This document shows, piece by piece, positions 10,537 to 47,413 of a stretch of DNA of 64,000 nucleotides. The DNA comes from Labrys sp. KNU-23 (GTDB taxonomy: Bacteria; Pseudomonadota; Alphaproteobacteria; Rhizobiales; Labraceae). Position 1 is the stretch's first letter, and every line of letters begins with the position of its first letter. A program made the translations under genes and the position numbers. The stretch is from NCBI RefSeq assembly GCF_008330945.1, contig NZ_CP043488.1, positions 1,116,001 to 1,180,000 of the forward strand. The letters are read 5' to 3'. The notes under the pieces are model-generated. The model made no database searches. It saw only the letters and a program-made list of their open reading frames with translations, and was not told the DNA's origin.

Positions 10537-10561
10537 TTCAGGGCCCAGGATGAAACAGGGA

Positions 10562-12626: not shown

Positions 12627-12660
12627 GGCGCTACCTCGTCAGCACGGCCCCGGAACTTGC

Positions 12661-12689: not shown

Positions 12690-12695
12690 GTTTGC

Positions 12696-12740: not shown

Positions 12741-12790
12741 GGCAAAGAGAAGGCCGAAGCAGATACGGCAGGCGCCCGCCCTCGCGCGCG

Positions 12791-14362: not shown

Positions 14363-14553
14363 GGCCATCTCCCGGTTAAACGGTCCTTCGTCGGCGGTCA
14401 CGACGGCGCGGCTTTGTTTTTGTCTCGCGCTTCGTCACCAAGCGATCGGCTGCATCCCGAACGGCTGGTGACTCCGTTCTCTGCAGACGATCCATTCCCC
14501 TGCCCGTATCCAGTTCGGGCATTTTTATCATTCCATAAGCGGCACACGCCGTC

Positions 14554-14590
14554 TACAAATTTGTACCACAACGAGTATACAATATTGTAT
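14554..14590. promoter_or_regulatory. Two adjacent palindromes upstream of the system 1 binding-protein gene
   Basis: TACAAATTTGTA (14554-14565) and ATACAATATTGTAT (14577-14590) are both perfect palindromes with centres 24 bp apart. The second includes TATACAAT (14576-14583), shared with three other intergenic sites between 15.7 and 17.6 kb. On the minus strand TTGTAG (14558-14553) and TGGAAT (14535-14530) could serve as -35 and -10 with 17-bp spacing, so the first palindrome would overlap the -35. The FCD regulator at 15793 is the likely binder. Confidence 0.6.
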
Positions 14591-14645
14591 GGCGAAGCTG
14601 GAGACGAGTTTATCCGGCGCGGGAGTTGCTGCTCCCGCGCGATCG

Positions 14646-15665: not shown

Positions 15666-15735
15666 GCCGCCTCACAATCCGGGTGCCACCGCCTGGTTGC
15701 GGCCACCATGACAGGGGTTGTTTTCAACTCGGCAA

Positions 15736-15750
15736 TATACAATGTAGAAT
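15736..15750. promoter_or_regulatory. Shared operator motif between the system 1 ATPase and the GntR regulator
   Basis: TATACAAT at 15736-15743 extends to ATACAATGTAGAAT, which matches 11 of 14 positions of the perfect palindrome at 14577. It lies in the 127-bp divergent gap, so it could control both the ATPase gene and autoregulate the regulator. Confidence 0.5.
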
Positions 15751-15792
15751 ACACTTGGTTTCCTCCGCTGAGTCAAATTGCAAGGTCGCATC

Positions 15793-26379: not shown

Positions 26380-27294
26380 TTACGGCTCGGGAAGGCTGGC
26401 CTCCCGCTTGAGCCATTCTATGAAAAGGTCAACCGCCTTCTTACGGGCCCTGCGCCGGGGCGCGATGAAGAAATAGGCGTTTTGGGTGACGATGGCTTCA
26501 TTCGTGAGCCTGACCAGCCGGTTCTGGGTGAGCAGGTCCTCGACGAGCCGGCGCCATCCGAGTGCGATGCCGTGACCGTTCAACGCGGCATAGATCGCCT
26601 CGGTATAGAAGCTGCAATGCATGCCCGAGCCTTTGCCGGGGATCGTGACGGAGAACGCCGCAAGCCACTGGTTCCAATTGGTCCAGGTGGGATCGGCGGT
26701 ATCATTGGTGATCAGGGGATAGCGCGTGAGCTGGGCGAGATCCCTGATCTGCCCGATCTCCTGCGCATAATCGGCGCTGCAGATGGGGAAGATCTCGTCG
26801 TGAAAGAGAAACTCGGCATCCCCATCAGGCCACAAGCCGCTTCCGAAGCGGATGGCGAGGTCCACATCCTCGCCGTCGACCTTGATGGCATTGTCCTGCG
26901 TGATGATGCGTAGCCTGATATTGGGATGGGCCTTCGAAAAAGAGGCAATGCGGGGGAGAAGCCAGAAATGGGAGAAGGCTATCGTCGCCGCGATGGCAAG
27001 ATCGTCCCCCGCCTCTTCCTTTGACCAGTCCGAGATCGTCTCCGCGATGAGGTTGAAGGCCGTCGAGGTCGTGGACGAAAGCTGCTTGCCCTTCTCGGTC
27101 AATTCGACGCGCCTGTGCAGGCGCCGGAACAGGGGAAAGCCGAACATATCCTCCAGGAGATGGATCTGGCGGCTGATCGCTGCCTGAGTGACCCCCAGTT
27201 CCGCAGCCGCCCTGGTGAAACCGCCCAAGCGTGCAACCGCCTCGAAGGCGGTGAGAGCAGTAAGCGGAGGAAGTTTTCGCCGCAAATTGGCCAT
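26380..27294 (-). CDS. LysR-family regulator, GcvA-like
   Basis: A 304-residue LysR-type regulator. The winged HTH spans about residues 8-65 (FEAVARLGGFTRAAAELGVTQAAISRQIHLLE), with the GcvA-type FPLFRRLHRR wing. The effector domain shows VDLAIRFGSG, GIALGWRRLVEDLL and a basic tail. It is divergent from the Rieske oxygenase gene across a 159-bp gap, the classic arrangement for control of the neighbour. Its 3' end is 22 bp from the amidohydrolase stop, convergent. Confidence 0.88.
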   Translation of the reverse strand: MANLRRKLPPLTALTAFEAVARLGGFTRAAAELGVTQAAISRQIHLLEDMFGFPLFRRLHRRVELTEKGKQLSSTTSTAFNLIAETISDWSKEEAGDDLAIAATIAFSHFWLLPRIASFSKAHPNIRLRIITQDNAIKVDGEDVDLAIRFGSGLWPDGDAEFLFHDEIFPICSADYAQEIGQIRDLAQLTRYPLITNDTADPTWTNWNQWLAAFSVTIPGKGSGMHCSFYTEAIYAALNGHGIALGWRRLVEDLLTQNRLVRLTNEAIVTQNAYFFIAPRRRARKKAVDLFIEWLKREASLPEP

Positions 27295-27453: not shown

Positions 27454-28706
27454 ATGCTCAACACATTCTCGTCTGCGATCTCGCCCCTCCTGGACCAGCG
27501 CATGCCGGGCCATGCCCTCCCTGCCGGTCTCTACACGCGCGAGGATGTCTTCAAGGCAGATCTCGACGTGTTCTTTCGCCGGCACTGGATCTATGTCGGC
27601 CTGGAATGCGACGTTCCCGAGCCGGGCGACGCCCATGTGATCGATCTCGGCAGCTCCAGCATCATCCTGCTGCGCGACGACGACAGCCAGATCCGGGTGC
27701 TTCACAATGTCTGCCGCCATCGCGGCGCCCGCCTGCTGGGCAGCGGCACATCCATCGTCTCCAAGCTCGTCTGCCCCTATCATCAGTGGACCTATGAGCT
27801 CGATGGCGAACTTGCCTTTGCGCCGCATATGGGCACGGGCTTCGACAAGACCTGCAAGAGCCTCAAGCCGGTCCATTTCCGGTCGATCGGCGGCCTGATC
27901 TATGTCTGCCTCTCGGACAATCCCCCGAAGACATCGGCACGCTCGAGACCGTGATGCGAGAGCGCCTGGCACCCTACGATATCGCCAACAGCAAGGTCGC
28001 CTTCCAGAGCGAGATCATCGAGAAGGGCAATTGGAAGCTCACCATCGAGAACAACCGGGAATGCTATCACTGCTCGTCCAATCATCCCGAGCTCTGCGTC
28101 TCCTTCATCGATCTCGATTTCGGCTTCGATCCGGCCAGCCTGAGCCCCGAGGACCGGGAAGAGGCCGAGCAGCACCAGGCCCTCTACGAGGCACGTACCA
28201 AGGCCTGGGAGGCCGAGGGCTATCCCTCGGCAGCCGTCGAGCAACTCGTCGACTGCGCCACCAATTTCCGTACGCAGCGCCTCATCATCGCGGGCGCCGG
28301 CGAATCCCAGACGCCGGACGCCACTGCCGCCTCGTCCAAGCTCCTTGGCTCGATGACACGCAAGGATCTCGGCGACGTTCATCTGTGGGGCCATAATTGC
28401 TGGCATCATTTCATGGGCGACCATGCCGTGTGCACGATGATCATTCCCCTCAGCGCCGACGAGACGCTCGTCCGCACGAAGTGGCTGGTGCACAAGGACG
28501 CCGTCGAAGGCCGCGACTACGATCTCGACAAGCTGACCAGCGTGTGGGTCGCCACCAACGAACAGGACGCGCAACTGGTCGCCCGTTCCTATTCGGGCGT
28601 CGTCGATCCCGCCTATGAACCCGGTCCCTACTCTCCCTTCACCGAGGGCCAGCTCGACAATTTCGTCACCTGGTACATCGATCGGATGCGCGCCAATGGC
28701 TACTGA
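27454..28706 (+). pseudogene. Rieske non-haem iron oxygenase, betaine demethylase type, with a -1 frameshift
   Basis: Two frames together give one 416-residue-equivalent oxygenase like GbcA or stachydrine demethylase Stc2. The first (27454-27954) carries the Rieske cluster CRHRG...CPYHQW; the second (from about 27927) carries the mononuclear iron site ENNRECYHCSSNHPE. At the C-run 27922-27926 one base is missing: adding one base joins DNPP directly to EDIGTLETVMRERL and restores family sequence. Without it translation ends 27 nt later and no catalytic domain is made. This is either a real inactivating deletion, phase variation at the C-run or a sequencing error. The reductase gene overlaps its end by 11 bp. 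Confidence 0.85.
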
Positions 28707-29778
28707 CAGCTCGTTGCAGACTGGCGCTGGTATGGCCGTTGCCCCGCACGCCGAAGCATTCGACCAGCTCCTGTGCGTCGATGTCCATGACGAAACGCAT
28801 GACGTGAAGAGCTTCACCTTCCTGTCATCCGACGGCAAGGCCTTCGATTTCGAGGCAGGCCAGCATCTGTCGCTCGAACTGGAGATCGACGGCCTACCTG
28901 AAAGCCGCTGCTACAGCATGTCGTCCTCGCCGGCGAGGCGGAAGGCCATCACCGTCACCGTGAAGCGCACCGAGGGCGGCCGCGTCTCGAACTGGCTGCA
29001 CGACAATCTGGTTGCCGGCATGACGGTCAAGGCCATGGGGCCGCTTGGCGCCTTCGTGCGGCCGGCGACCGCACCGGCGAAGCTTGCCTTGCTGTCGGGC
29101 GGCTCAGGCATCACCCCGCTGATGTCGATCGTCAGGGACATTGCCGACTCCGCGCAGCAAGCCGCGGACGTGGTCTTCGTCCATGCGGCCAGGACGCCCC
29201 GCGATCTCGTCTTCCGTGACGAGCTCGGCGTGCTGGCGAACCGGTTGAAGGGGCTGCGGCTCATCCTGTTACCCGAGCAGGTCACCGGCGAACCATCCTG
29301 GCCGGGATTGACCGGGCGGTTATCCAAGGCGTTCCTGTCGCTGGCCATTCCGGATCTCGCGGAGCGGGTCATCATGTGTTGCGGCCCGGCGCCCTTCATG
29401 CAGGCTGTCCGCTCCTTCAGCGCCGAATTGGGAAGCCCCGCCCAAAACTATTACGAGGAGAGCTTCGACGGTGCCGGCGTCGAGGAGCCGCCAGCCGAAG
29501 TCCTGCCACAGGCGAGAGCCTTCAAGGTCGAGTTCGCCAAGCAGTCGCGCACCATCGAGGTGGCCGACGGGCAGACGGTGCTGTCGTCGGCCAAGAAGGC
29601 CGGCATCCGCCTGCCCTCCTCCTGTGCCAACGGCCTGTGCGGCACCTGCAAATCCAAGCTCGTCAGCGGCAGCGTCGACATGCAGCACAATGGCGGCATT
29701 CGCCAGCGCGAAGTCGAGGCAGGCTTCTTCCTACCCTGCTGCTCGAAGCCGCTGAGCGACCTGGTGATCGACAGATAG
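28696..29778 (+). CDS. Rieske oxygenase reductase with C-terminal 2Fe-2S ferredoxin
   Basis: A 360-residue electron-transfer partner resembling GbcB. In order: FAD domain with RCYSMSSSP (about residue 73), NAD domain with LLSGGSGITPLMS (about 133) and CCGPAPFM (about 230), then a plant-type 2Fe-2S domain with CANGLCGTCKS and the final Cys in LPCCSKP. It would pass NADH electrons to the Rieske oxygenase. ATG 28696 overlaps the oxygenase end; ATG 28732 is an alternative with an equally weak SD. The gene is intact although its partner is frameshifted. Confidence 0.87.
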   Translation: MATDSSLQTGAGMAVAPHAEAFDQLLCVDVHDETHDVKSFTFLSSDGKAFDFEAGQHLSLELEIDGLPESRCYSMSSSPARRKAITVTVKRTEGGRVSNWLHDNLVAGMTVKAMGPLGAFVRPATAPAKLALLSGGSGITPLMSIVRDIADSAQQAADVVFVHAARTPRDLVFRDELGVLANRLKGLRLILLPEQVTGEPSWPGLTGRLSKAFLSLAIPDLAERVIMCCGPAPFMQAVRSFSAELGSPAQNYYEESFDGAGVEEPPAEVLPQARAFKVEFAKQSRTIEVADGQTVLSSAKKAGIRLPSSCANGLCGTCKSKLVSGSVDMQHNGGIRQREVEAGFFLPCCSKPLSDLVIDR

Positions 29779-30250: not shown

Positions 30251-30877
30251 ATGGAGCAGGTTTTGGGCGAAACGGGCTGGCGGGGCTCGGCAGAAGTCTG
30301 GCTGGAGGCGGCCTATGAACTCCTGCTCGAATCCGGGGTCAGTACGGTCAAGATTCTGCCTCTGGCCAAGAAACTTGGCCTGTCGCGCACCAGCTTCTAT
30401 TGGTTCTTCAAGGATCGCGAGGAACTCCTCGGCGCCCTCATCGCGCGCTGGCGCGACAAGAACACCGGCAACCTCGTCAAGCAGGCGCAGGCCTATGCCG
30501 AATCGATCGCCGAGGCGATGCTCAATGTCAATGATTGCTGGATCGACAAGACCCTGTTCGACGCCCAGTTCGAATTCGCCGTACGCAGCTGGGCTCTCGA
30601 ATCCTCGGACATCCTCGCTGAAGTGAGGACTGCCGACCAGATCCGCCTCGAAGCGCTTGCGCAGATGTTCACACGGTTCGGCTACACCGCCATCACGGCC
30701 GACGTGCGGGCCCGGACGACCTATCTCACCCAGATCGGCTATATCTCGATGCAGACGCGGGAAGATGTCGGCGTTCGCATGAAGCGCATTCCCGAATATG
30801 TCGAGATCTTCACCGGTGTCCGGCCCGAACAGCGCGAACTCGATCGCTTCCACGCCAGGCATGACTTCAGGGCGTAA
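30251..30877 (+). CDS. TetR-family transcriptional regulator
   Basis: A 208-residue TetR-type repressor with an N-terminal HTH (VKILPLAKKLGLSRTSFYWFFKDREELL, about residues 33-60) and a variable helical ligand domain. ATG 30251 follows GGGGGCG. It is convergent with the cupin/flavoenzyme operon whose promoter, like its own, carries the 6-4-6 motif, so it probably controls that operon and the divergent flavoenzyme. The ligand is unknown; a methylated amine or betaine fits the context. Confidence 0.87.
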   Translation: MEQVLGETGWRGSAEVWLEAAYELLLESGVSTVKILPLAKKLGLSRTSFYWFFKDREELLGALIARWRDKNTGNLVKQAQAYAESIAEAMLNVNDCWIDKTLFDAQFEFAVRSWALESSDILAEVRTADQIRLEALAQMFTRFGYTAITADVRARTTYLTQIGYISMQTREDVGVRMKRIPEYVEIFTGVRPEQRELDRFHARHDFRA

Positions 30878-30910: not shown

Positions 30911-31513
30911 TCAGGGCCGGTTGCCCGCCTGCAAGGCCCAGAAGGCGAACAGCGGCGTGTCGAGCGAGCGCATCGCATGCCTGATACCGGGCCTGTTGTA
31001 GAACGAGCCGCCAATCCCTGGCGAGAACCAGTCTCCCTCCCCCTGCCGGAACTCGCCGTCCGACATTACCAGATAGACCTCCTCGGGGGCATGGTCATGG
31101 TCGGGATAGCGTACCTTCGGCGCCATCAGCGACACGCCGAGCCAGACGTCCCCGCGTTCCTCAAGGCCACCGGGGCCCAGAAGCATCGCATTGGCGTGCC
31201 CGTCCTCGAAATTGGTGCTGGCCGTGCTGTCATTGTTCGGACGTCGGCGCCATTGGAGGTTGGGCTCGACCGCGCTGAAGCATTCCAGCAGCCTGACAAG
31301 CGTCGTGTGGCCTGTTTCGAGCCCAAGAGCCTGATCGAGATGCTCGCAAGCCGGAAGGCGAGCGCCAGCGCCTGCTCTTGCTTCCCTTGGCTCTTCCAGC
31401 GCCCTGAAGATCTCGGCGATGGACCGGCGTGCCTCAGGGTCCTGCGCGAATTGACCGAAAGCCTCCCGGGCTGCATCGACGAAATTCTGAAGGACCATGC
31501 TTCGCTGCGTCAT
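30911..31513 (-). CDS. DMSP-lyase-like cupin (cupin-DLL family)
   Basis: A 200-residue protein whose C-terminal half matches the DddL/DddQ-type single-domain cupin: first metal motif YPDHDHAPEEVYLVMS (His, His, Glu, Tyr in order), second motif PGIRHAM. Bona fide members cleave dimethylsulfoniopropionate (DMSP); many soil relatives have an undetermined role. ATG 31513 has SD GAGGG and begins 15 nt after the flavoenzyme stop, so the two are cotranscribed. An ATG at 31531 overlaps that stop and lacks an SD. The operon partner suggests a substrate in the onium or N-methyl class. DMSP activity is not claimed. Confidence 0.8.
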   Translation of the reverse strand: MTQRSMVLQNFVDAAREAFGQFAQDPEARRSIAEIFRALEEPREARAGAGARLPACEHLDQALGLETGHTTLVRLLECFSAVEPNLQWRRRPNNDSTASTNFEDGHANAMLLGPGGLEERGDVWLGVSLMAPKVRYPDHDHAPEEVYLVMSDGEFRQGEGDWFSPGIGGSFYNRPGIRHAMRSLDTPLFAFWALQAGNRP

Positions 31514-31527
31514 CGAAACCCTCGCGA

Positions 31528-33564
31528 TCAAATATCCTTGGCCAGCCTGAGGCCATCATAGATGGCCGCATGGGTATTGCGAGCAGCAACCGCATCACCG
31601 ATGCGGAAGAGCTGGAACTGGCCCTCCCCGTTGCGAACCACGGATTGGGGCTGGCCAGCGATCAATTGCTCGTAGGACATCTCGCCGAGATTGCTCGAGG
31701 ACGGCTTCAATTCGAAATAGAGGTCGTCGAGCGGGATCGTGCCGTGATTGACGACGATCTGGTCGAAGCTGCGCTGCCTGACAATGCCGCCGTAGTCGCT
31801 GCCGATCTGGGCGACCAGCTGGTTTCCCGCCTTTTCGACGGCAAGAAGGCGGTAGGTGACGGTGAAGGTGACATCCAGCTTCTGCAGGGAACGCATATAG
31901 GGCACGAGATTCATCCCCATGACCTCGGGCGCGAAAGAGCGGTCCGGCGTCATGATCTCCACTTTCGCCCCGGCCTGCGCCAGGATCTCGGCCGCCTGCA
32001 AGCCGGCATGGTCGCCGGCATCGTCGAAGATGAGCACGTTGGAACCGGGTTTGATATCGCCGGAGATGATATCCCAGGCGGAGACGACGAGCTCGTTGCC
32101 CTTGGAGAGCACTTCCGTATGCGGCAGCCCGCCCGTGGCGACGATCACCACGTCCGGCTTCTCGGCCTCGATGCTGTCGGCATCCGCCCAGCTGTTGAAA
32201 TGGAAGGTCACGCCCAGCTTCTCGCACTGGCTCATGCGCCAATCGATGATGCTGATCATTTCCTTGCGCCGCGGGCTCTGGGCAGTAAGCCTGACCTGTC
32301 CGCCCGGCTTGCCGGCGGCCTCGAAGACAACGACCCGGTGCCCCCGCTCGGCGGCGACCCGTGCCGCCTCCAGACCCGCCGGGCCGGCACCGATGACGAC
32401 GACGGTCTTGCGGACTTCGGCCGGCTGCAGAGCATGCGGCATGGTCAGCTCGCGACCGGTGGCCGGATTGTGGATGCAATAGGCGGCCCCGCCCTGATAG
32501 ATGCGGTCGAGACAGTAATTGGCGCCGACGCAGGGCCGGATGTCATCCTCGCGTTTTTCGATGATCTTGCGGACCAGATGCGGATCCGTCATGTGGGCAC
32601 GCGTCATCCCGATCATGTCGACCTTGCCGGCGGCGATGGCGTGACGTGCCGTAGCGACATCCGGAATCTTGGCGGCGTGGAAGGTCGGAAACTGCGTAGC
32701 AGCGCGGATCTCACCCGCGAAATCGAGATGCGGCGAGTTCGCCATGCCCTGGATCGGGATGACGTCGGTCAGCCCGGCATCGGTATCGATATGGCCGCGG
32801 ATGACGTTGAGAAAATCGATCAGGCCGCTTTCCTTGAGGCGGCGTGAAACCTCCAGGCCTTCTTCCTTCGTCGTGCCGCCTTCGAGTTGCTCGTCCGCGG
32901 TATAGCGCACGCCGACGATGAAGTCGGGTCCGACGCGCTCGCGGATGGCCTTCAATACGTCGAAGCCGAAGCGCAGGCGGTTTTCGAGCGATCCGCCATA
33001 GGGACCGTCCAGCTCATTGGTGAGCGGCGACCAGAACTGGTCGATCAGATGGCCATAGGCTTCCAGCTCGATGCCGTCCATACCGCCGGCCTTCATGCGC
33101 TCGGCCGCGTCGGCGAAATCCTTGATGATGCGCGCGATGTCCCAGTCTTCCAGTTTCTTGGGAAAGGCGCGATGCGAGGCTTCTCTCTGGTGGGACGGTG
33201 CCACGACAGGCAGCCAATCGCCCTTGTCCCAGCGCGTGCGGCGGCCAAGATGCGTGAGCTGGATCATCACCGCTGCGCCATGCTCATGAACGGCGTCGGT
33301 CAGGTCCTTGAGCCAGGGGATGATCTCGTCCCGGTAGGCGAGCAGATTGTTGAAGACCGGCGGACTGTCCTTCGAAATGGCGGCGGATCCCGCCGTCATG
33401 GTCATAGCGACGCCGCCCTTCGCCCGCTCCACATGATAGGCCCGATAGCGCTCCTTCGGCATGCCGTCTTCGGGATAGGCCGGCTCATGCGAGGTCACGA
33501 TGATGCGGTTGCGGAGCTTGAGATGCTTGAGCTGAAAGGGCTGCAGGAGGGGATCGTTCGACAT
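31528..33564 (-). CDS. TMADH/StcD/DgcA-like FMN-FeS-FAD N-demethylase
   Basis: A 678-residue modular flavoenzyme: an N-terminal old-yellow-enzyme TIM barrel binding FMN (residues 1 to about 340), an iron-sulfur segment, then an FAD/NAD domain with VVVIGAGPAGLEAARVAAERG (shared fold with 2,4-dienoyl-CoA reductase). The iron-sulfur segment reads CVGANYC...YCIHNP, so the second Cys of the TMADH pattern CxxCxxC is Ala here; I believe StcD/DgcA relatives share this. Such enzymes demethylate N-methylproline or dimethylglycine. A TTGACA-17-TAGCAT promoter under a TetR operator precedes it. The exact substrate is open. Confidence 0.85.
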   Translation of the reverse strand: MSNDPLLQPFQLKHLKLRNRIIVTSHEPAYPEDGMPKERYRAYHVERAKGGVAMTMTAGSAAISKDSPPVFNNLLAYRDEIIPWLKDLTDAVHEHGAAVMIQLTHLGRRTRWDKGDWLPVVAPSHQREASHRAFPKKLEDWDIARIIKDFADAAERMKAGGMDGIELEAYGHLIDQFWSPLTNELDGPYGGSLENRLRFGFDVLKAIRERVGPDFIVGVRYTADEQLEGGTTKEEGLEVSRRLKESGLIDFLNVIRGHIDTDAGLTDVIPIQGMANSPHLDFAGEIRAATQFPTFHAAKIPDVATARHAIAAGKVDMIGMTRAHMTDPHLVRKIIEKREDDIRPCVGANYCLDRIYQGGAAYCIHNPATGRELTMPHALQPAEVRKTVVVIGAGPAGLEAARVAAERGHRVVVFEAAGKPGGQVRLTAQSPRRKEMISIIDWRMSQCEKLGVTFHFNSWADADSIEAEKPDVVIVATGGLPHTEVLSKGNELVVSAWDIISGDIKPGSNVLIFDDAGDHAGLQAAEILAQAGAKVEIMTPDRSFAPEVMGMNLVPYMRSLQKLDVTFTVTYRLLAVEKAGNQLVAQIGSDYGGIVRQRSFDQIVVNHGTIPLDDLYFELKPSSSNLGEMSYEQLIAGQPQSVVRNGEGQFQLFRIGDAVAARNTHAAIYDGLRLAKDI

Positions 33565-33912: not shown

Positions 33913-35898
33913 GTGTCCAAGCAGTTCCCCCGCCTGTTTTCACCCCTCACGATCGGCACGCGCACGCTGAGGAACAGGATCGTTTTCGGCGCCCACACCG
34001 CAAACATGGCCGTGAACGGGCTGCCGACGGAACGGCATGCAGCCTATTATGCCGAACGCGCCAAGGGCGGCGCCGGCATGATCGTGGTCGAGCCGATGCC
34101 GGTGCACCCCGCGGCCATTCTCACCCGCGGCAATTTTCGGGTTTGCGACGACAGCGTCATTCCCGCCTTCAGGAAAGTCGTCAGCGCCATCAAGGACAAC
34201 GGCGCCGTCGCCATCCAGCAGCTCTATCATATCGGCGCCCATGGCGATTCCGACAATTCCTTCCATCCCCATTGGTCCCCCTCGGGCCTGCCGAGCTACC
34301 ACGACAGCGATGGCTCGCATGCGATGAGCGAGGCCGAGATCCAGGAGACGATCGACGGCTTCGTGGAGGCGGCACGCCGGTGCCGGGCCGCCGGCTTCGA
34401 CGGCGTGGAGGTCTGGGCCGCCTATCTCGGCCTGGTCGACCAGTTCTGGACGCCCTGGACCAATCGCCGCCAGGACCAATGGGGCGGCACGCTGGAGAAC
34501 CGCACCCGCCTGTCGAGGGAAATCCTCACCCGCATCCGCAAGACCTGCGGCAAGGACTTCATCATCGGCCTGGCCATCAGCGACGAGCCTGACTACAGCG
34601 TTGCGCTCAGCCGCGACGAACTGGCCGAAATCGTGGGTCTTCACGACCGGCAGGGCCTGATCGACTATGTCACCTGCGGCTCCGGCGGCTATCTCGACTT
34701 TCACAAGCTGATGCCGACCTTTCTCTATCCGGAAAAGCTCGGCGCGGATCTGGCTGCCAGGATCAAGGCCGCCGTTACACATGCGGTCGTCATTGCCGAA
34801 AGCCATATCCGCACGCCTGAAAATGCCGAGACGGTCCTGGGTGAAGGCTCTGCCGACCTGGTTTCCATCGTGCGCGGCCAGATCGCCGACCCGCATCTGG
34901 CCAGAAAGGCCAGCGAAGACCGGGCCGACGACATCAGAGGCTGCATCTCCTGTAACCAGATGTGCTGGGGGCGTCGCTCGCGCGACTATTGGATCAGTTG
35001 CCTGATCAACCCGTCCGTCGGACGCGAGTTCATGTGGGGCGGCGATCGTTTCGAGCCGGCGGCCGTGGCTAGGCACGTTCTCGTGGTGGGTGGCGGGCCT
35101 GCAGGCCTGGAGGCAGCCCGCGTCGCCGCCGAACGCGGCCACAGGGTAACGCTGGCCGAAGCCTCCAGCCGGCTGGGCGGCAATTTCCTGCTCGCCGGCC
35201 TGCAGCCCCGCCGCGCCCAGATCCTCGATCTCCTCGCCTGGTATGAGCGCCAGCTGTCCAAGCTCGGCGTCGATGTCCGCCTGAACTGCTACATGGAGGC
35301 CGACGACGTGACGGCGATGGCACCGGACACCGTCATCCTCGCCACCGGCTCCCTGCCGCCCGACACCGGCTTCCAGAAAGCCCTCCCGGCGATAGAGACC
35401 TTGCCCGGCATCGAAAAGGGCGGCGTCTTCTCGATCGAGGCGGTCATGAGCCGCCAGGCCCGCCTCGGCAAGCGCGTGCTGCTGCTCGACGAAGGCGGCG
35501 GCTGGCGCGGCGGCGGAACGGCCTGGAAGCTGGCGGAGGAAGGCCACGAAGTCACCATCCTCACGCCGGACGCCTTTGTCGGCAAGGAATTGCAGCGCAC
35601 CACCGCCGACGTTCCCCTGCGACGGACACTCAAGAAGCTTGGCGTCACCTGGCAGGTCGAGGTCAGCATTGCCGAATGGCATGGCCAGGGCGCCACGATC
35701 ATCGACCACAACAGTGGCGAAAGGTCGTTCGTCGCAGCCGACAGCCTGGTGCTGGCCATGACAAACATCCCGGCAAACTGGCTCGCGACGGACCTTGCGG
35801 CCCAGGGGGTGCCCCTTGTCGAGATCGGCGATTGTGCCGCCCCCCGCCAGGCCCCCTATGCCTTTTTCGACGGCCGAAAAGTCGCCCTCGGCCTCTGA
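33913..35898 (+). CDS. TMADH-like FMN-FeS-FAD oxidoreductase (second paralogue)
   Basis: A 661-residue enzyme with the same three-part architecture as its divergent neighbour: OYE barrel, iron-sulfur segment, FAD domain (HVLVVGGGPAGLEAARVAAERG). Unlike the neighbour it has the full dienoyl-CoA-reductase-type Cys set, CISCNQMC then Cys 11 residues later in WISCLINP. The two therefore differ in cluster ligation and probably in substrate. The start is GTG 33913 with a weak SD; it is the first in-frame start giving the family N-terminus FPRLFSPLTIG. Likely role: oxidative demethylation of an N-methyl compound. Confidence 0.82.
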   Translation: MSKQFPRLFSPLTIGTRTLRNRIVFGAHTANMAVNGLPTERHAAYYAERAKGGAGMIVVEPMPVHPAAILTRGNFRVCDDSVIPAFRKVVSAIKDNGAVAIQQLYHIGAHGDSDNSFHPHWSPSGLPSYHDSDGSHAMSEAEIQETIDGFVEAARRCRAAGFDGVEVWAAYLGLVDQFWTPWTNRRQDQWGGTLENRTRLSREILTRIRKTCGKDFIIGLAISDEPDYSVALSRDELAEIVGLHDRQGLIDYVTCGSGGYLDFHKLMPTFLYPEKLGADLAARIKAAVTHAVVIAESHIRTPENAETVLGEGSADLVSIVRGQIADPHLARKASEDRADDIRGCISCNQMCWGRRSRDYWISCLINPSVGREFMWGGDRFEPAAVARHVLVVGGGPAGLEAARVAAERGHRVTLAEASSRLGGNFLLAGLQPRRAQILDLLAWYERQLSKLGVDVRLNCYMEADDVTAMAPDTVILATGSLPPDTGFQKALPAIETLPGIEKGGVFSIEAVMSRQARLGKRVLLLDEGGGWRGGGTAWKLAEEGHEVTILTPDAFVGKELQRTTADVPLRRTLKKLGVTWQVEVSIAEWHGQGATIIDHNSGERSFVAADSLVLAMTNIPANWLATDLAAQGVPLVEIGDCAAPRQAPYAFFDGRKVALGL

Positions 35899-35960: not shown

Positions 35961-37085
35961 TCACGCCGCCTGCGCAAATCGCCTCTCGCCATCCCCGACC
36001 AGGCTCCTGTCGAGCTCGAAACCAAGGCCCGGCCCCTGGAAAGCCTCGATCCAGCCCTGCTTCGGATCGAGGTCGGGCGAGACGACGATGTCCTTTTGCA
36101 CCAGCTGCCACATGATCTGATTGCCATCGTCGAGATTGGGGATGGCCAGCGCGATATGGTGCTCGGCACAGGTGGTGATGCCTGTGGTGAAGGAACTGTG
36201 GATGCAGATCTTCAGCCCCGCCGCCTCGGCGACAGCCGCCGCCTTCAGCATGGGCTGGATGCCGCCGATTTCGCGCGGCCCGATGCAGATCATGTCGGCG
36301 GCGCGCTGGCGGCAGATCTCGTGGACGTCGTAGAGCGTGAAGGCCGCCTGGTCGGCGACGATCGGGATGCCGACGGATTCCCGCACATGCGCCATGGCCG
36401 GAATACTCCAGCTCGATGTCGGCTGCTCGATGAACTCGATCTCGAATTTCTCGAGCTTGCGGCACATGTTGATTGCCTCGTGCACGCCCCAGCCTTCATT
36501 GGCATCGAGCCGCAGGCGCGCATCGCCGATCTCGCGGCGGACCGCCGCGGTAATTTCCAGGTCGAGCTTCTCGCCCCGGCCGACCTTCAGGTAAAAGACG
36601 CGCTCCCCACGCGCCCGGCCCGCGGCAGCGTCACGTGCCAGTTCTTCGGCCGTTTCCCCCTGCAGGAAATAGAAATAGCCGACGGCCTTGCGATGGGCTC
36701 CGCCGAGAAGACGATGGACCGGCAAGCCGGCAAGCTTGCCCTGCAGGTCCCACATCGCCATGTCTACGCCCGAGAACATCTGGTTGGCCGCGCGCATGAT
36801 ATTGGCGCCATGGCCGAGATATTCCTGGTGGAAGATGCGCGCGATCAGCGGCGCGACGTCATAGGGCGACTGGCCGACCAGATGGCCCGTCAGGCGCCTG
36901 AGAATCGCCGCCGTCCCGGCCTGGTCCGGCGCCACGGTGCATTCGCCGATGCCGACCATGCCGTTGTCGGCCTCGATCTCGATCAGATTGACGGCGAAAC
37001 TCTCCCTGATGCCGTAGGACCAGTGATAGGGCTGCTTAAGGGGCAGCACCAGCGGCCGGACGCGCACCTGCGAGATCTTGACCAT
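35961..37085 (-). CDS. Enolase-superfamily enzyme (mandelate racemase/muconate lactonizing group)
   Basis: A 374-residue protein with the N-terminal capping domain and the C-terminal barrel. Metal ligands are D194 (LRLDANEGW), E220 (FIEQP) and D245 (PIVADQ). At the KxK position it has Tyr-Leu-K167, so only the second Lys remains. The second catalytic Lys of the MLE group is absent at IGPREIGG (268-275), while H296 in CIHSSFTTG could be the partner base. Betaine epimerases such as HpbD belong to this superfamily and fit the neighbourhood, but the altered residues argue for another reaction. SD GGAAGGAA precedes ATG 37085. Confidence 0.83.
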   Translation of the reverse strand: MVKISQVRVRPLVLPLKQPYHWSYGIRESFAVNLIEIEADNGMVGIGECTVAPDQAGTAAILRRLTGHLVGQSPYDVAPLIARIFHQEYLGHGANIMRAANQMFSGVDMAMWDLQGKLAGLPVHRLLGGAHRKAVGYFYFLQGETAEELARDAAAGRARGERVFYLKVGRGEKLDLEITAAVRREIGDARLRLDANEGWGVHEAINMCRKLEKFEIEFIEQPTSSWSIPAMAHVRESVGIPIVADQAAFTLYDVHEICRQRAADMICIGPREIGGIQPMLKAAAVAEAAGLKICIHSSFTTGITTCAEHHIALAIPNLDDGNQIMWQLVQKDIVVSPDLDPKQGWIEAFQGPGLGFELDRSLVGDGERRFAQAA

Positions 37086-38248: not shown

Positions 38249-39145
38249 TCAAAGCAATCCCGCCTGTTTGAGATAGGCCTTGGCGACCTCCTCGATCGCC
38301 TTCTTGTGGACATCGACCTCGCCATTCAGCGCCTGCATGGTGGCGTCGTCCAGCTTGGCCGAGAGCGCATCGAGCGTGGCTTTCAGGTCCGGATGGGCAT
38401 CGAGCGTAGCCTGGCGGACGACCGGGACGAGTGCGTAGTTCGGGAAGAAGCCCTTGTCGTCCTTGAGCAGGGTCAGCTTCATGGCAGCGATGCGCCCATC
38501 GGTGGCGCCCACCGTGGCCACGTCGATGTCGCCGCTGGCGAGGGCATTATAGACGAGCCCGATCTCCATCGGCCGGAGATTGGCACGCCCCGCCTTGAAG
38601 CCGTATTTCTTCTCCAGGCCGATCAGGCCGTCCTCGCGCTTGGGAAACTCCGCCGTGGCCCCGAGCAGGACCGGCTTGCCATCCTTGTAGGCGGCGGCGA
38701 GATCGGAAAAGGTCTTGAGGCCGTCCGTCTTGGCATTATCAGGCCGGATCGCCAGCGCATAGGTGTTGTTGGCCTTGGAGGGGGCGAGCCAGACCAGCCC
38801 CTTGGCGCCATCCAGTTCCTTGACCCTGGCATAGGTTGCCTCGGGCGAGAGCGGCTCCGTCACCTTGTTGAAGGTCACCAGCGAGGTGCCCGTATATTCC
38901 CAGTAGAGGTCTACCTGTCCGTTCTCCAGGGCGGCACGCACGATATTGGTGCCCATGCCGTCCTTCTTGTTGATGGTGTAGCCCTTGCTCTCCAGGAGCT
39001 GCCTGGTCATCTCGGCCAGCAGGAACTGTTCGGTGAAGTCCTTGCCGCCAACGGTGAGTGTGGCGGCAAAGACCGCCGTCGACACCACGAAGGAGGCTGC
39101 GACGCACAAGGCGGCGAGCGCGCGCTTCGGCAGAATGCTGATCAT
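38249..39145 (-). CDS. OpuC/OsmF-type quaternary-amine binding protein, copy 1
   Basis: A 298-residue periplasmic binding protein of the glycine-betaine/carnitine/choline OpuAC family. The signal peptide ends near VFAA (residue 28); mature landmarks are VGGKDFTEQ, DLYWEYTGTSLVTFNKVT and APSKANNTYA. It is a tandem paralogue of the next upstream gene, separated by 90 bp, with long identical blocks. AGGGGGA precedes ATG 39145. It ends the minus-strand transporter operon. Confidence 0.9.
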   Translation of the reverse strand: MISILPKRALAALCVAASFVVSTAVFAATLTVGGKDFTEQFLLAEMTRQLLESKGYTINKKDGMGTNIVRAALENGQVDLYWEYTGTSLVTFNKVTEPLSPEATYARVKELDGAKGLVWLAPSKANNTYALAIRPDNAKTDGLKTFSDLAAAYKDGKPVLLGATAEFPKREDGLIGLEKKYGFKAGRANLRPMEIGLVYNALASGDIDVATVGATDGRIAAMKLTLLKDDKGFFPNYALVPVVRQATLDAHPDLKATLDALSAKLDDATMQALNGEVDVHKKAIEEVAKAYLKQAGLL

Positions 39146-39235
39146 GGTCTGTCCCCCTGCCGGCCGTCCCCGGACGACACTGGCGCGAAAATTTGGGAAG
39201 AACGGGTCAGCCCTGTCAGGGCCGACCCATCGGGC

Positions 39236-40141
39236 TCACTTCAAGCCGTTCTGCTTGAGGAAATCGGCCGCGACGACTTCGACCGTTTTCTTGTCGACAT
39301 CGACCTCGCCGTTCAGCTTCTGCATGGTGGCGTCATCGAGCTTGGCCGAGAGTGCCTCAAGAGTGGGCTTCAGATCGGGATGGGCGTCGAGCACGGTCTT
39401 GCGCACTACGGGCGTGAGGGCATAGTTGGGAAAGAAACCCTTGTCGTCGGCGAGCACGCGCAGCCCCAGCGCCGCAATCTGGCCGTCGGTCGCCTGGGCG
39501 GAGATGACGTCGAGATCCTTGTTGGCCAGGGCCCGATAGGCGAGGCCAAGATCCATCGGCTTGACGTTGGCCCGGCCAGCCTCGAAATCATAGGTTTTCT
39601 GCAGGCCGAGCAGGCCGTCCTGGCGCTTGGGGAATTCGGCCGTGGTGCCCATCATCAGCGCCGTTCCCGCCTTGTAGGCAGCGGCCATATCGGACACCGT
39701 CTTCAACCCGTCGGTCTTCGGATTGTCCTTGCGCACCACCATGGCATAGGTGTTGTTGGCCTTCGACGGCGCCAACCAGACCAGCCCCTTCTCGCCGTCG
39801 AGCTGCTTGACCCGATCATAGGTCGCCTGCGGCGTGAGCTTGTCCGTCACCTTGTTGAAGGTCACGAGGGAGGTGCCGGTATATTCCCAGTAGAGATCGA
39901 CTTCGCCATTCTCCAGGGCGGCGCGGACGATCTTGGTGCCCATGCCGTTCTTCTTGTCGATCGAGTAGCCCCTGCTGGTCAAAAGCTGCGTCGTCATCTC
40001 GGCGATGATCTGCTGCTCGGTGAAATCCTTGCCGCCGACCGTCAGATTGGCCGCCGGGGCCGCGCTGCCGGTCGTGGCCAGCACGATCGCCGAAAACACC
40101 CCCGAAAACACGCACTTGCCCAGTTTCGTCAGCATCGTCAT
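39236..40141 (-). CDS. OpuC/OsmF-type quaternary-amine binding protein, copy 2
   Basis: A 301-residue paralogue of the downstream gene, with signal peptide ending at APA-AN near residue 31. It shares VGGKDFTEQ, DLYWEYTGTSLVTFNKVT and APSKANNTYA but differs in the central lobe (PMDLGLAYRALANKDLDVIS here versus PMEIGLVYNALASGDIDVAT), where ligand discrimination would be expected. SD AGGGA lies before ATG 40141. Two binding proteins feeding one membrane complex would widen its ligand range. Confidence 0.9.
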   Translation of the reverse strand: MTMLTKLGKCVFSGVFSAIVLATTGSAAPAANLTVGGKDFTEQQIIAEMTTQLLTSRGYSIDKKNGMGTKIVRAALENGEVDLYWEYTGTSLVTFNKVTDKLTPQATYDRVKQLDGEKGLVWLAPSKANNTYAMVVRKDNPKTDGLKTVSDMAAAYKAGTALMMGTTAEFPKRQDGLLGLQKTYDFEAGRANVKPMDLGLAYRALANKDLDVISAQATDGQIAALGLRVLADDKGFFPNYALTPVVRKTVLDAHPDLKPTLEALSAKLDDATMQKLNGEVDVDKKTVEVVAADFLKQNGLK

Positions 40142-40172
40142 CGTCTTTCCCTCTGTTGCTTGTTGCCGCTGT

Positions 40173-40934
40173 TCAGCGCAGCGGATTGATGCCTCGCGGA
40201 ACGAGGTAGTATTGGAGCCGGCCGACCAGGAAATCGGTGAGCACGGCCAGGATCGCGGTGGGGATGGCGCCGGCGAGCATCATCGGCAATTCGTCGAGGG
40301 CGATACCGGTGAAGATCAGTTCGCCCAGGCTCCCAGCCCCGATCAGGAAGGCGAGCGGGGCCGAGCCCACACAGATCGCCAAAGCGGTGCGGATGCCACC
40401 GAAGATGACGAACAGTGCATTGGGCAATTCCACCCGCCACAGGGTCTGCAGCGGCGTCATGCCCATGCCGCGCGCCGCTTCCAGGAGATGGGGCTGAACC
40501 GCGCGCAATCCCGCATAGGTGTTGCGTACGATCGGCAGCAAGGTCGCCGCCCACAATCCGAACACGGATGGCAGCGTGCCGATGCCGAGCCAGGTCATCG
40601 ACAAAGCAAGAATGGCGAGCGTCGGGATGGTGCTGCCCAGATTGAAGACCTGCATCACGAATTCGGAAAAGCGCCGAAGGGCCGGCCGCGACAGCAGGAT
40701 GCCCATGGGAACGGCGGTGAGGATGGCAAGGCCGCCCGCCCAGGCCACCAGCTCGATATGCTGCACGCTCAGATAGGTGATGTCGTCCCAATAGGCGAGA
40801 ATCTCGCCTGCCATGCCGCTGAGCCACAGCCACAAGCAGATGGCGAGCAGCACCGCCCACATCCCAAGCGGTACCCAGAGGTGGGAACGCCCTCTGCCCT
40901 CGGTGGTCGCGATGGCTGCCGCAGGCCCGCTCAT
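40173..40934 (-). CDS. OpuC-type ABC permease 1
   Basis: A 253-residue inner-membrane permease with about six hydrophobic segments, a BPD_transp_1 domain and the EAA loop LLEAARGMGMTPLQTLWRVELP. The family marker AICVGSAPLAFLIGAGSLGE is present. Its ATG overlaps the ATPase stop (ATGA at 40934-40931), so synthesis is coupled. It pairs with the permease at 42046. Confidence 0.9.
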   Translation of the reverse strand: MSGPAAAIATTEGRGRSHLWVPLGMWAVLLAICLWLWLSGMAGEILAYWDDITYLSVQHIELVAWAGGLAILTAVPMGILLSRPALRRFSEFVMQVFNLGSTIPTLAILALSMTWLGIGTLPSVFGLWAATLLPIVRNTYAGLRAVQPHLLEAARGMGMTPLQTLWRVELPNALFVIFGGIRTALAICVGSAPLAFLIGAGSLGELIFTGIALDELPMMLAGAIPTAILAVLTDFLVGRLQYYLVPRGINPLR

Positions 40935-42049
40935 CCCATTTCTCCGGCATGGCTGAGGCTGGCGACGATCGAGCGATAGGTCAGGACGCCCTTGAGCTGC
41001 CCGGCCTCGTCAACGCAGGGCAGCACCGGCATGTCCTGGGCGAACATCGAGGCCACCGCATTGCGCAGGTCCGAATGGAGCGCCGCCGTGGTTTCGACCG
41101 GGCGCGCATGGTCACCGACAGTCCCGGTCGCAGTCCTGGCGCGGTCGAGCGCGAGCAGGCCTTCGGGCCTGCCGTCTGTCGCAACCACGATGATGGCGTG
41201 CTGGCCAGAGGCCTGCATCTTCTCGAGGGCCAGCGCGATCGGATCTTCAGCCCGCACCGCATCGAACTGGGCAGCCATCGCCTCCCCGGCGGTGACGAGC
41301 CGCAGGCGCTTGAGGGCCCGGTCGGAACCGAGAAAATTCTCGATGAAGGCATTGGCCGGCCTGGCCAGCAACGCGTCGGGGCTGGCATATTGTTCCAGGC
41401 GCCCGCTGCGGAAAATGGCGATCTTGTCCGCCATCTTCACTGCCTCATCGAGATCGTGCGAGACGAAGATGATGGTCTTGCGGATCGCCTGCTGCATCTT
41501 CAGGAACTCGTCCTGGATCACCTCGCGATTGATCGGGTCGATCGCGCCGAAGGGCTCGTCCATCAGCATGACCGGTGGATCGGCGGCGAGCGCACGCAGC
41601 ACGCCGACGCGCTGCTGCTGGCCGCCGGACAGTTCACGCGGATAGCGGCTGAGGAAGAGGTCGGGCTGCATGCCCACCAGTTCGAGCAGTTCGCCCGCCC
41701 GGGCGCGCGATTTCCGGCGGTCCCACCCGAGGAGATCGGGCACCACGCAGATGTTCTCACAGATGGTCTTGTTGGGAAACAGGCCGATCTGCTGGATGAC
41801 GTAGCCGATCGAGCGACGCAGCTGGATCGGATCGGTGGCGCTGGTATCCTTGCCGTCGATATAGACCTTGCCGCCGGTGGGCTGGATCAGGCGGTTGATC
41901 ATCTTCATGGTCGTGGTCTTGCCGCAGCCCGACGGCCCCAGCAGCACGCAGATCTCTCCCGCCGGCAAATCGAGATTGATGTCGTCGACGGCGACGAAAG
42001 GCTTGCCTGCGGTTTCGAAGGTCTTTGTCAGATGTTCGAGACGGATCAT
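40931..42049 (-). CDS. OpuC-type ABC ATPase with C-terminal CBS-like region
   Basis: A 372-residue ATPase of the betaine-importer class (ProV/OpuCA). Walker A GPSGCGKTT, Q-loop QQIGLFPN, signature ELSGGQQQRVGVLRAL, Walker B VMLMDEP, H-loop VSHDLDEA. The C-terminal 120 residues form a tandem CBS-like pair (HAIIVVATDGRPEG, VLPCVDEAGQLKG) that in relatives senses ionic strength. Start ATG 42049 has GGAG 7 nt upstream and overlaps the upstream permease stop; a longer frame to 42091 was rejected. Confidence 0.9.
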   Translation of the reverse strand: MIRLEHLTKTFETAGKPFVAVDDINLDLPAGEICVLLGPSGCGKTTTMKMINRLIQPTGGKVYIDGKDTSATDPIQLRRSIGYVIQQIGLFPNKTICENICVVPDLLGWDRRKSRARAGELLELVGMQPDLFLSRYPRELSGGQQQRVGVLRALAADPPVMLMDEPFGAIDPINREVIQDEFLKMQQAIRKTIIFVSHDLDEAVKMADKIAIFRSGRLEQYASPDALLARPANAFIENFLGSDRALKRLRLVTAGEAMAAQFDAVRAEDPIALALEKMQASGQHAIIVVATDGRPEGLLALDRARTATGTVGDHARPVETTAALHSDLRNAVASMFAQDMPVLPCVDEAGQLKGVLTYRSIVASLSHAGEMG

Positions 42050-42711
42050 CGGCTCGCTCCGCCCTTGATGCCCTTGGAAGTCAGCAGCCACTGCACCAGA
42101 GCCAGGAACAGGTCTGCGGCGATCGCCAGGAGAGACACGGCCAAGGCTCCCGTGATCAGTTGCCGGGGATCGGATTGACTGATGCCGCGCGAGATGAAGG
42201 TGCCGAGCCCGCCCGCGCCGATATAGGCGGCGATGGCGGTTACCCCGATATTCATCACCACGGCGGTGCGCACCCCTGCCATGATCACCGGCACGGCCAG
42301 GGGAATCTCGACCTGGCGCAGCCGCTGGCCCGTGCTCATGCCCATGCCGGTCGCCGCCTCGCGCAGGGCCGGATCGACATTGGCGATGGCGGTATAGGTG
42401 TTACGGATGATCGGAAGCTGCGAATAGAGGATCACGGCGATCACCGCCGGCACATAGCCGATGCCATGGCCGAGGGGTGAAAGCAGCGGGATCATCAGCC
42501 CGAACAGGGCGATGGACGGCACGGTGATCATGATCGAGGCGAGATAGAGGACGGCGTCGGCGGCGGTTTTTGACTGAGTGATCGCAATACCGATCGGCAC
42601 CGCCGTGGCGATGGCGATACCAACCGCCACGAAGACGATGGAAATGTGTTCGAGTGCCCTGGCACCGATCACATGGAGATTGTCGGAGATGAAGGTCAGG
42701 ATTTCCATCAT
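42046..42711 (-). CDS. OpuC-type ABC permease 2
   Basis: A 221-residue permease with about five to six membrane segments, EAA loop LREAATGMGMSTGQRLRQVEIP and the marker NIGVTAIAAYIGAGGLG. Two adjacent ATGs (42711, 42708) are possible; no strong SD distinguishes them. Its TGA overlaps the ATPase ATG. The gene order permease, ATPase, permease, two binding proteins matches OpuC/Osm systems. Confidence 0.88.
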   Translation of the reverse strand: MMEILTFISDNLHVIGARALEHISIVFVAVGIAIATAVPIGIAITQSKTAADAVLYLASIMITVPSIALFGLMIPLLSPLGHGIGYVPAVIAVILYSQLPIIRNTYTAIANVDPALREAATGMGMSTGQRLRQVEIPLAVPVIMAGVRTAVVMNIGVTAIAAYIGAGGLGTFISRGISQSDPRQLITGALAVSLLAIAADLFLALVQWLLTSKGIKGGASR

Positions 42712-45877: not shown

Positions 45878-47413
45878 TCAGGGTTCCCCGGCGCCGATCT
45901 CCGTGCGCCGGCGCGTGATATAGGCCTCGAGCTCCTCGCGAACGGCCTCGTCCAAAGCGGGCTCCTGATATTCCCGCAAGGCGTGCTGCCAGAGGCCCGT
46001 CGCCCGGTCGAGTGCGTCATGGGCACCCGCTTCCTGCCAGCTGCCGTAGTTCTGCCAGTTGGAGAGCATCGGCTGATAGAAGGCGGTTTCGTAGCGCGAC
46101 ATCGTGTGTTCGCTGCCGAAGAAATGCCCGCCGGCCGGCACGGCTTTGATCGCCTCGAAACCCAGATCGTCCTCCTCGAACGGCATGGGACGCAGGAACT
46201 CCATCATGTTCTGGAGGATCTCGACGTCGAGGACGAGCTTTTCATAGGACGCCGTGAGGCCGCCCTCCAGCCAGCCGGCGGCGTGATAGATCAGGTTGGC
46301 GCCGCCAAGGACGGCGCCCCAGGTCGCCATCTCCGTCTCATAGGCAGCCTGCAGATCGACCGCATTGGAGGCGTTGGCATTGGAGGTGCGATAGGGCAGG
46401 CCGTAACGCCGCGCAAGCTGGCCGGCGATGATGTTGGCTTTGGTGTTCTCAGGCGTGCCGAAGGCCGGCGCGCCCGAGCGCATGTCGACATTGGAGGTGA
46501 AGGCCCCGTACATCACCGGCGTGCCAGGATTGACGAGCTGCGTCAGCACCACGCCGAACAGGGCCTCGGCATTCTGCTGGCACAGGGCGGCCGCCAAAGT
46601 CACCGGCGTCATCGCGCCCATCAGCGTGAAGGGGGTGACCGTCACCGGCTGGCCATGCTCGGCCATGGCCATGAGGCCGTCCGCCATGGCGTCGTCGAAC
46701 AGCCGCGGCGAGTTGACGGAGATGATGGTGATGACGCCGGGCGAAGCGCGCATCTCCTCCAGTGTGATGCCCCGCGCGATTGCCATCATGGCGATCGCGT
46801 CCATGGCCCGGCCACGCCCGATGGCGCTGCAGTGGAAGCTCAGATCGCTGAGAGAGAGGTTGGCCTTGTAGGTGTCGAGATGGCGCGAATTGGCCGGCAG
46901 TTCGATCGGGGCGCAGACCTGGTTGCCCAGGATATGGATGGCGTTGAAATAATGTGCCAGGCGGGTGAAATTCTCGTAGTCGGCGAGATTGCCGGCTCGC
47001 CGGCCATTGATGCGGTCATGCACGTTGGGCGGCCCTGCCACCAGGCCGAAGACCAGCGCATTGCCGCCGATCTCGAGCTGCTTGTCGGGATTGCGGCCGG
47101 TCAGGGTGAAGCGACGTGGAGCGGTGCGGAGCGCTTCCTTCACCAGCGTCTCGTCGATACGGATGGTCTGGCTTTCGCGATCGACCAGCGCGCCGGCCTT
47201 CTCGAACAGGTCCATCGCCCGTGTGCTCATCACCCGGATGCCGAGTTCGGAGAGGATGCGCATCGAGCTGCGATGCAGCACCTCCATGCGCTCGTCATCC
47301 AGCATCTGCATGGGTGAATAGGGATTCGACACGCGCTGCCAGGGCAGCTGGGGAATGCCCCCGCCCCGCATGCTTCTCGATCGGCGCCCCCCGCCACGCC
47401 TGTCCTGTGTCAT
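45878..47413 (-). CDS. MttB-superfamily methyltransferase, non-pyrrolysine type
   Basis: A 511-residue trimethylamine-methyltransferase-family (COG5598) protein. The frame is uninterrupted by any amber codon, so it is not a pyrrolysine enzyme; such members demethylate glycine betaine, proline betaine or carnitine in studied bacteria, transferring the methyl to a corrinoid protein. No corrinoid protein or reactivase is visible nearby, so the acceptor is unclear. Characteristic stretches include LGGANLIYHAAGWLEGGLTAS. The start is uncertain: ATG 47413 lacks a strong SD, and 47440 and 47455 are possible. It begins the regulator-M24-importer run. Confidence 0.85.
   Translation of the reverse strand: MTQDRRGGGRRSRSMRGGGIPQLPWQRVSNPYSPMQMLDDERMEVLHRSSMRILSELGIRVMSTRAMDLFEKAGALVDRESQTIRIDETLVKEALRTAPRRFTLTGRNPDKQLEIGGNALVFGLVAGPPNVHDRINGRRAGNLADYENFTRLAHYFNAIHILGNQVCAPIELPANSRHLDTYKANLSLSDLSFHCSAIGRGRAMDAIAMMAIARGITLEEMRASPGVITIISVNSPRLFDDAMADGLMAMAEHGQPVTVTPFTLMGAMTPVTLAAALCQQNAEALFGVVLTQLVNPGTPVMYGAFTSNVDMRSGAPAFGTPENTKANIIAGQLARRYGLPYRTSNANASNAVDLQAAYETEMATWGAVLGGANLIYHAAGWLEGGLTASYEKLVLDVEILQNMMEFLRPMPFEEDDLGFEAIKAVPAGGHFFGSEHTMSRYETAFYQPMLSNWQNYGSWQEAGAHDALDRATGLWQHALREYQEPALDEAVREELEAYITRRRTEIGAGEP

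Follow-up and report, generated by a model that had tools for sequence, protein, structure and literature searches.

Lyases of the DddQ and DddK type remove the C-alpha proton of their substrate and expel the group attached to C-beta. In DddK, the tyrosine equivalent to DddQ Tyr131 has been put forward as the base, and the metal is bound by the substrate carboxylate (PMC12582016). In the catabolism of prolines and their betaines, 2-epimerase activities on (hydroxy)proline betaines have been mentioned for HpbD (PMC5144071). A Ser/Thr pair has been noted in a trans-3-hydroxyproline dehydratase (t3HypD) and a Ser/Cys pair in a 4-hydroxyproline epimerase (4HypE), and t3HypD requires a base for the alpha proton (PMC4113996, eLife 2014). 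The N-methylproline demethylase of stachydrine catabolism is encoded by stcD, which has been placed on pSymB of Sinorhizobium meliloti in region B307; a derivative without nt 122,109–1,129,757 does not have this region (PMC12239276). Here we analysed a stretch of 64,000 nucleotides (the window) from Labrys sp. KNU-23 (GCF_008330945.1, contig NZ_CP043488.1, positions 1,116,001 to 1,180,000), in which a gene for a cupin related to dimethylsulfoniopropionate (DMSP) lyases, DLL1, lies directly behind a gene for an StcD-type flavoenzyme. We tentatively propose, giving it somewhat less than even weight, that this cupin is a metal-dependent proline-betaine enzyme that dehydrates N-methylated 3-hydroxyproline, and not a DMSP lyase. 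A search of the open-licence literature, which leaves most subscription papers outside, returned no role for the cupin beside stcD and no text linking a DMSP-lyase-like cupin to stachydrine or hydroxyproline.

A DddQ-type cupin with an intact metal and tyrosine site

The cupin gene (30911..31513, minus strand) runs from an ATG at 31513 to a stop at 30911 and encodes 200 aa; an alternative TTG start at 31531, six codons upstream, would give 206 aa. PF16867 (DMSP_lyase) is its only Pfam match, with an E-value of 4.3e-59 and 199 bits against a cut-off of 27. An AlphaFold2 model, for which a 49-row alignment was the input, has a mean predicted local distance difference test score (pLDDT) of 93.9, and its top matches among solved structures are DddQ entries in both lists (Z 19.7–20.3, root-mean-square deviation 2.6–2.9, 180–185 residues, 19–21% identity), followed by DddY and then by single-domain cupins, including DddK. 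Alignment with the DddQ residues assigns H139, H141, E145 and H179 as metal ligands and Y147 as the base, the latter corresponding to Tyr131 of DddQ, whose Y131A variant is PDB 4la3. These five residues are invariant in 49/49 DLL1 rows. Its membership of PF16867 is strong, its fold is of the DddQ type and its metal/tyrosine site is intact; the PF16867 match and the fold bear out its first assignment as a cupin of the DMSP-lyase family.

The likeness to DddQ (PDB 4la2, 5cu1, 4b29) covers the whole length of the fold, at a Z of about 20, and includes the common H-x-H-x3-E-x-Y motif and a distal His. The two proteins differ in sequence (about 20% identity), in gene context, which for the cupin is a betaine-demethylase operon and not a DMSP context, and at positions 106 and 108, where 49/49 DLL1 rows have His and Asn and the three DddQ chains used for comparison have aromatic residues or Cys. 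In the tree, these three chains form a long, well supported branch apart from the DLL1 cupins. With PF16867 as the sole Pfam match, the cupin showed neither an enolase-superfamily sequence, as in HpbD, nor PF05544 with Thr replacing the second Cys, as in t3HypD.

The partner flavoenzyme

The gene preceding the cupin (31528..33564, minus strand, 678 aa) encodes an FMN/FAD flavoenzyme of the N-methylproline demethylase type, in which Pfam identifies an Oxidored_FMN domain and a FAD/NAD (pyridine-nucleotide) domain; StcD is presumably a 678-aa protein of this same family. In S. meliloti 1021, pSymB encodes a single full-length homologue, at 1108030–1110063, which is 86% identical to the Labrys flavoenzyme. 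Because it is the sole full-length homologue on pSymB, and stcD has been reported from region B307 of this replicon, the partner flavoenzyme is very probably the orthologue of the stcD product, an identity reached by combining these two facts and not from a locus tag; the 86% figure concerns the flavoenzyme only and not the cupin. The first-pass annotation, which had placed the cupin in an operon with an StcD-like demethylase, was correct, and the relationship is closer than its wording implied. It had also given a spacing of 15 nt; the tandem arrangement stands, but the gap between the flavoenzyme stop and the cupin start is 14 nt, as it is in both named Labrys loci (L053/L054).

All 107 StcD-like proteins compared (107/107; 61–100% identical to Rhizobium leguminosarum StcD) carry the motif C-x-G-A-x2-C-x11-C. 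They have one Cys fewer than the four-Cys Fe-S motif of the FadH/TMADH family; in OYE2, a second flavoenzyme of the old yellow enzyme (OYE) type, CxxCxxxC is kept in 21/21 sequences. The operons of R. leguminosarum bv. viciae 248 and R. johnstonii 3841 run from stcD through the cupin, EtfB and EtfA of an electron-transfer flavoprotein (ETF), a second cupin, glutathione-dependent formaldehyde dehydrogenase and S-formylglutathione hydrolase to Gfa. The presence of ETF and formaldehyde genes points to an oxidative N-demethylation with use of ETF and removal of formaldehyde, and the assignment of the flavoenzyme as a putative N-methylproline demethylase is supported by this gene content.

The second cupin, DLL2, was found in 12 copies, all from Rhizobium (11 of the 80 loci described below, plus the copy at 14367–15062 of L051). 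In 12/12, the equivalents of H141, E145, Y147 and H179 are replaced by Q, R, F and F, and a Phe occupies the position of Y136. DLL2 nevertheless keeps its position in the stcD operon, and this combination of a lost active site and a retained place marks it as a conserved pseudoenzyme and suggests a structural or regulatory role.

Recurrence of the stcD-cupin pair

In order to compare neighbourhoods, we used 80 named cupin loci, the best 80 of 136 confirmed hits from one pattern scan; 40/80 are named Rhizobium, so the loci are not independent. Neighbours were counted within about 10 kb, or less at contig ends, which cut many loci, and the counts are thus lower bounds. Genes were called with a simple open reading frame (ORF) caller and labelled by their best BLAST hits to a query set, so that ProV, ALDH and DapA may include paralogues, and all counts refer to this 80-locus set and not to the 82 loci of a stricter clustering.

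The tandem of stcD and cupin is present in 63/80 loci, with intergenic gaps of -1 to 164 nt. Ten or more named genera from two classes have it, among them Labrys, Rhizobium, Sinorhizobium, Ensifer, Phyllobacterium, Mesorhizobium, Shinella, Pararhizobium, Rubellimicrobium, the gammaproteobacterium Litchfieldella and, in addition, three further Rhizobiales, and the tandem is carried by rhizobial megaplasmids including pSymB of S. meliloti. The pairing is not a matter of chance, and its recurrence in other soil genomes, which had been set as a check when the pair was first noticed, is confirmed.

Seen from the side of StcD, the cupin is less constant. Ten StcD genes with identities of 82% or more were sampled; a cupin stands behind seven of them (G000, G121, G150, G280, G023, G187, G648) but not behind the other three (G041, G216, G561). 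Forty StcD regions were then taken, and two (L157, L177) were left out because they had no StcD gene call; in the resulting 38 further neighbourhoods, which include four of the ten, the gene directly downstream encodes a cupin in one case, a Pro_racemase-family protein in three and a Rieske protein in four. The cupin is thus an extra that accompanies StcD in one clade, and StcD does not always need it.

Neighbouring genes point to proline-betaine catabolism

The most frequent neighbours in the 80 loci are StcD (67), a TetR-family regulator (66), a protein similar to pyrroline-5-carboxylate (P5C) reductase (P5CR-like, 65), a ProV-like ATPase (63), a solute-binding protein (56) and EtfB (29). 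Less frequent are OYE2 (23), aldehyde dehydrogenase (ALDH, 21), Ldh_2 (20), DHDPS (19), DAO (16), the Rieske protein (16), Pro_racemase (7) and HpbD-like proteins (3), one of which (in L118) is only 29% identical. In Phyllobacterium (L088), Amaricoccus (L114) and 'Mycobacterium sp. KBS0706' (L112), the genes follow the order DHDPS, ALDH, DAO, betaine transporter, P5CR and cupin, and L115 has the same order without the transporter; the P5CR and cupin genes abut or overlap in L112, L114 and L115. In L112 (NZ_VCCH02000109.1), the cupin and its surroundings are alphaproteobacterial-like, and the organism name looks doubtful. In Marinobacterium (L094), a Pro_racemase and a protein of the ornithine cyclodeaminase (OCD) type lie beside the cupin, the best NCBIfam model of the latter being pyrroline-2-carboxylate reductase, below its cut-off (240 vs 322 bits).

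The slot after StcD can be occupied by other enzymes. In L115 and L162 it holds a protein of the proline racemase superfamily (PRS) of the Thr type, with the Ser/Thr pair of t3HypD (checked with NCBIfam for L115 only), and in L160 and L161 a Ser/Cys PRS protein, with the epimerase-type pair. We read this slot as a place for enzymes working on the C-alpha proton of prolines. Neighbouring DAAO, DHDPS and ALDH genes have been used to predict 4-hydroxyproline epimerases of the 4HypE pathway, and trans-3-hydroxyproline dehydratases have been predicted from OCD or MLD2 (Ldh_2) genes nearby (PMC4113996); signals of both kinds surround the cupin loci.

Taken with StcD, TetR, the quaternary-amine transporters, the reductases, the Rieske protein and the ETF/formaldehyde genes, these hydroxyproline-type DAO, DHDPS and ALDH neighbours make it likely that the cupin belongs to stachydrine/hydroxyproline-betaine catabolism. 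The transporter beside the operon of strain 3841 is very probably Qat3, by gene order and map position. A solute-binding protein 96% identical to pRL120516 is up in bean and pea bacteroids, a value of about 7- to 30-fold being given jointly with GbcX, and residual glycine-betaine uptake has been attributed to Qat3 (pRL120514-6) (PMC6421345).

Proposed reaction and alternatives

In the reaction that we propose, the substrate carboxylate would bind the cupin metal, Tyr147 would take the C-alpha proton, and the hydroxyl on ring C3 (C-beta) would leave, converting N-methylated 3-hydroxyproline or its betaine to an imine/enamine at the level of pyrroline-2-carboxylate. A neighbouring reductase of the P5CR-like, Ldh_2/MLD2 or OCD type would then bring the imine to the level of proline, while the methyl groups would be stripped as formaldehyde by the Rieske protein together with StcD/ETF. 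That the cupin works by C-alpha deprotonation is probable; dehydration as the outcome is given somewhat less than even odds, and is favoured because P5CR-like, Ldh_2 and OCD reductases are frequent beside the cupin. While the pathway is well supported by context, we infer the reaction step throughout and do not regard it as settled. A close parallel is t3HypD, for which the same chemistry is expected and which stands in the cupin's place behind StcD in L115 and L162, but it has another fold, acts on free 3-hydroxyproline and has a candidate elsewhere in the Labrys genome.

Several findings weigh against a dehydratase. The Labrys genome itself contains an HpbD orthologue in a separate betaine locus (L185) and a pair of PRS genes (L181, L182; Cys/Cys and Thr type), so the cupin presumably does not simply repeat the reactions of HpbD and PRS enzymes on the same substrates; our guess is that an N-methylated or cis-configured substrate explains the redundancy. 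Both the cupin and a PRS protein of the t3HypD kind are carried by L114, L115 and L131, and some relatives of the cupin stand in other contexts (L103, L108, L122). The Labrys genome yielded no orthologue of the partner P5CR (best match 31% identity), and in S. meliloti no P5CR lies beside the cupin. The P5CR-like protein itself may be a plain P5C reductase, as it reaches 171.5 bits where the proC cut-off is 196.75. The idea of the cupin as a simple stand-in for PRS enzymes is likewise weakened by the PRS pair of Labrys. In L185 (C2:1382000-1401900), positions 9497–17066, HpbD lies next to an MttB-like protein, DAO, ALDH and DHDPS, and the MttB-HpbD pairing hints at methyl transfer rather than oxidation.

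The cupin could instead be a C-alpha epimerase or racemase of hydroxyproline betaine or N-methylproline that stands in for HpbD or a 4-hydroxyproline epimerase, Tyr147 taking the alpha proton, which would be returned from the other face. This is a close rival, although by itself unlikely. In its favour are DAO, DHDPS and ALDH genes as known from 4-hydroxyproline catabolism, which occur in 16/80, 19/80 and 21/80 loci and form a gene set linked to the 4HypE pathway (PMC4113996), the Ser/Cys PRS directly after StcD in L160 and L161, and the fact that the annotation of the two Rhizobium clusters shows no Pro_racemase. However, the dominant neighbour resembles an imine reductase, which an epimerase does not need, and Labrys already has HpbD and two PRS genes. 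HpbD, like the proposed epimerase, acts at C-alpha of (hydroxy)proline betaines, but it has an enolase fold and its orthologues share loci with the cupin (L104, L114), so a simple replacement of HpbD by the cupin is also weakened. An ordinary lyase of DMSP or dimethylsulfoxonium propionate (DMSOP) riding with a betaine uptake system would agree with the family, fold and catalytic residues of DddQ and with the automatic name 'dimethylsulfoniopropionate lyase' on many of these genes, and ProU-type transporters could import DMSP. We nonetheless consider it improbable, as the three DddQ chains are far from the cupin in the tree. Annotated genes next to the cupin were surveyed in L050, L051 and L133, and in these three loci none was a DMSP or acrylate gene. 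R. leguminosarum J391, which we take to derive from 3841, provides a further argument, tempered by an acuI-type gene that 3841 carries elsewhere. J391 has served as a library host that 'cannot catabolize DMSOP' (PMC10686828); the operon may have been uninduced, so this is no proof. The role outside DMSP metabolism that had been suggested at the outset is judged likely.

The first-pass annotation had raised the idea of eliminating an amine or sulfonium group, of which the release of trimethylamine from beta-alanine betaine would be an example. DddK does catalyse an aza-Michael reaction in which amines add to acrylate, and a C–N beta-elimination is this reaction run backwards (PMC12582016). In stachydrine-type betaines, however, the nitrogen is on C-alpha and should not be expellable by the DddQ mechanism, and the three annotated loci named above hold no acrylate genes, which makes such a reaction very improbable. 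For proline betaine and hydroxyproline betaine in particular, the suggested N-onium elimination finds no support and was set aside on chemical grounds, the nitrogen being bonded to C-alpha; loss of the 3-hydroxyl or C-alpha epimerisation fits the neighbours better. Equally remote is a role without catalysis, in which the cupin would act as a sensor or would assist StcD. The conserved dead paralogue in Rhizobium operons makes helper roles conceivable in the family, and most StcD relatives do without a cupin (directly downstream in 1/38 extra neighbourhoods), yet the metal ligands and the tyrosine are all invariant in 49/49 DLL1 rows.

Other genes of the window

The TetR-family regulator gene (30251..30877, plus strand), which has an orthologue in 66/80 cupin loci, is convergent with the cupin gene. 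Beyond it lie genes for a GbcB-type reductase, the Rieske partner (28732..29778, plus; listed as an ORF at 28615-29778), and for a GbcA-type Rieske demethylase (27454..28706, plus), which is frameshifted into two ORFs (27454-27954 and 27951-28706). A LysR-family regulator gene (26380..27294, minus) is divergent from the Rieske gene. The break is a one-base gap beside a C run near 27926, relative to Labrys sp. WJW (93% DNA identity), and the gene is intact, with 417 aa, in G121, G150 and both named Labrys loci, whose records cover the same two species samples as G121 and G150. If it is a real pseudogene, the strain would be without the first demethylase at this locus. The Rieske demethylase had been described as standing next to the cupin; it is indeed nearby, but at 2.2 kb, with the reductase and TetR genes in between.

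On the other side of the flavoenzyme gene are OYE2, with the full Cys motif (33913..35898, plus), an enolase-superfamily protein (35961..37085, minus) and a betaine-type ABC transporter with two OpuAC-type solute-binding proteins, permeases and a ProV-type ATPase (38249..42711, minus). The enolase-superfamily protein was rejected as HpbD on its sequence, as its nearest solved protein is the nearly identical PDB 2pgw, whereas 4e8g, which together with 2pmq and 4h2h we take to be HpbD, scores far lower (E 3.5e-22). PDB 2pgw is titled only 'muconate cycloisomerase'; the gene for the enolase-superfamily protein is in the same betaine cluster of three Labrys genomes. Two further genes, labelled by eye as MttB-type (45878-47371, minus) and, for a large protein, as dimethylglycine-dehydrogenase-like (48730-51150, plus), may also belong to the window's betaine island. 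The Labrys genome comprises 7.55 Mb in two contigs.

Implications for rhizobial betaine catabolism

Stachydrine is reported to aid root colonisation and nodulation by S. meliloti (PMC12239276), and right behind stcD, in this species and in R. leguminosarum, lies a conserved gene that bears the label of a marine sulfur enzyme and has apparently not been studied. On balance, we lean slightly towards the view that the DMSP-lyase fold was recruited for N-methylated (hydroxy)prolines, as a hydroxyproline-betaine hydro-lyase or 2-epimerase. If this is true, a cupin would carry out the kind of chemistry for which enolase, proline-racemase and aconitase-X folds are otherwise used, and many rhizobial 'DMSP lyase' annotations would be wrong, with Rhizobium operons holding in addition a second copy with a dead site. 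The cupin is testable in model rhizobia with existing genetics, and on this reading the DMSP-lyase fold would have a broader chemistry, the interpretation of 'DMSP lyase' genes in soils would be corrected, and the catabolism of plant betaines would gain an enzyme.

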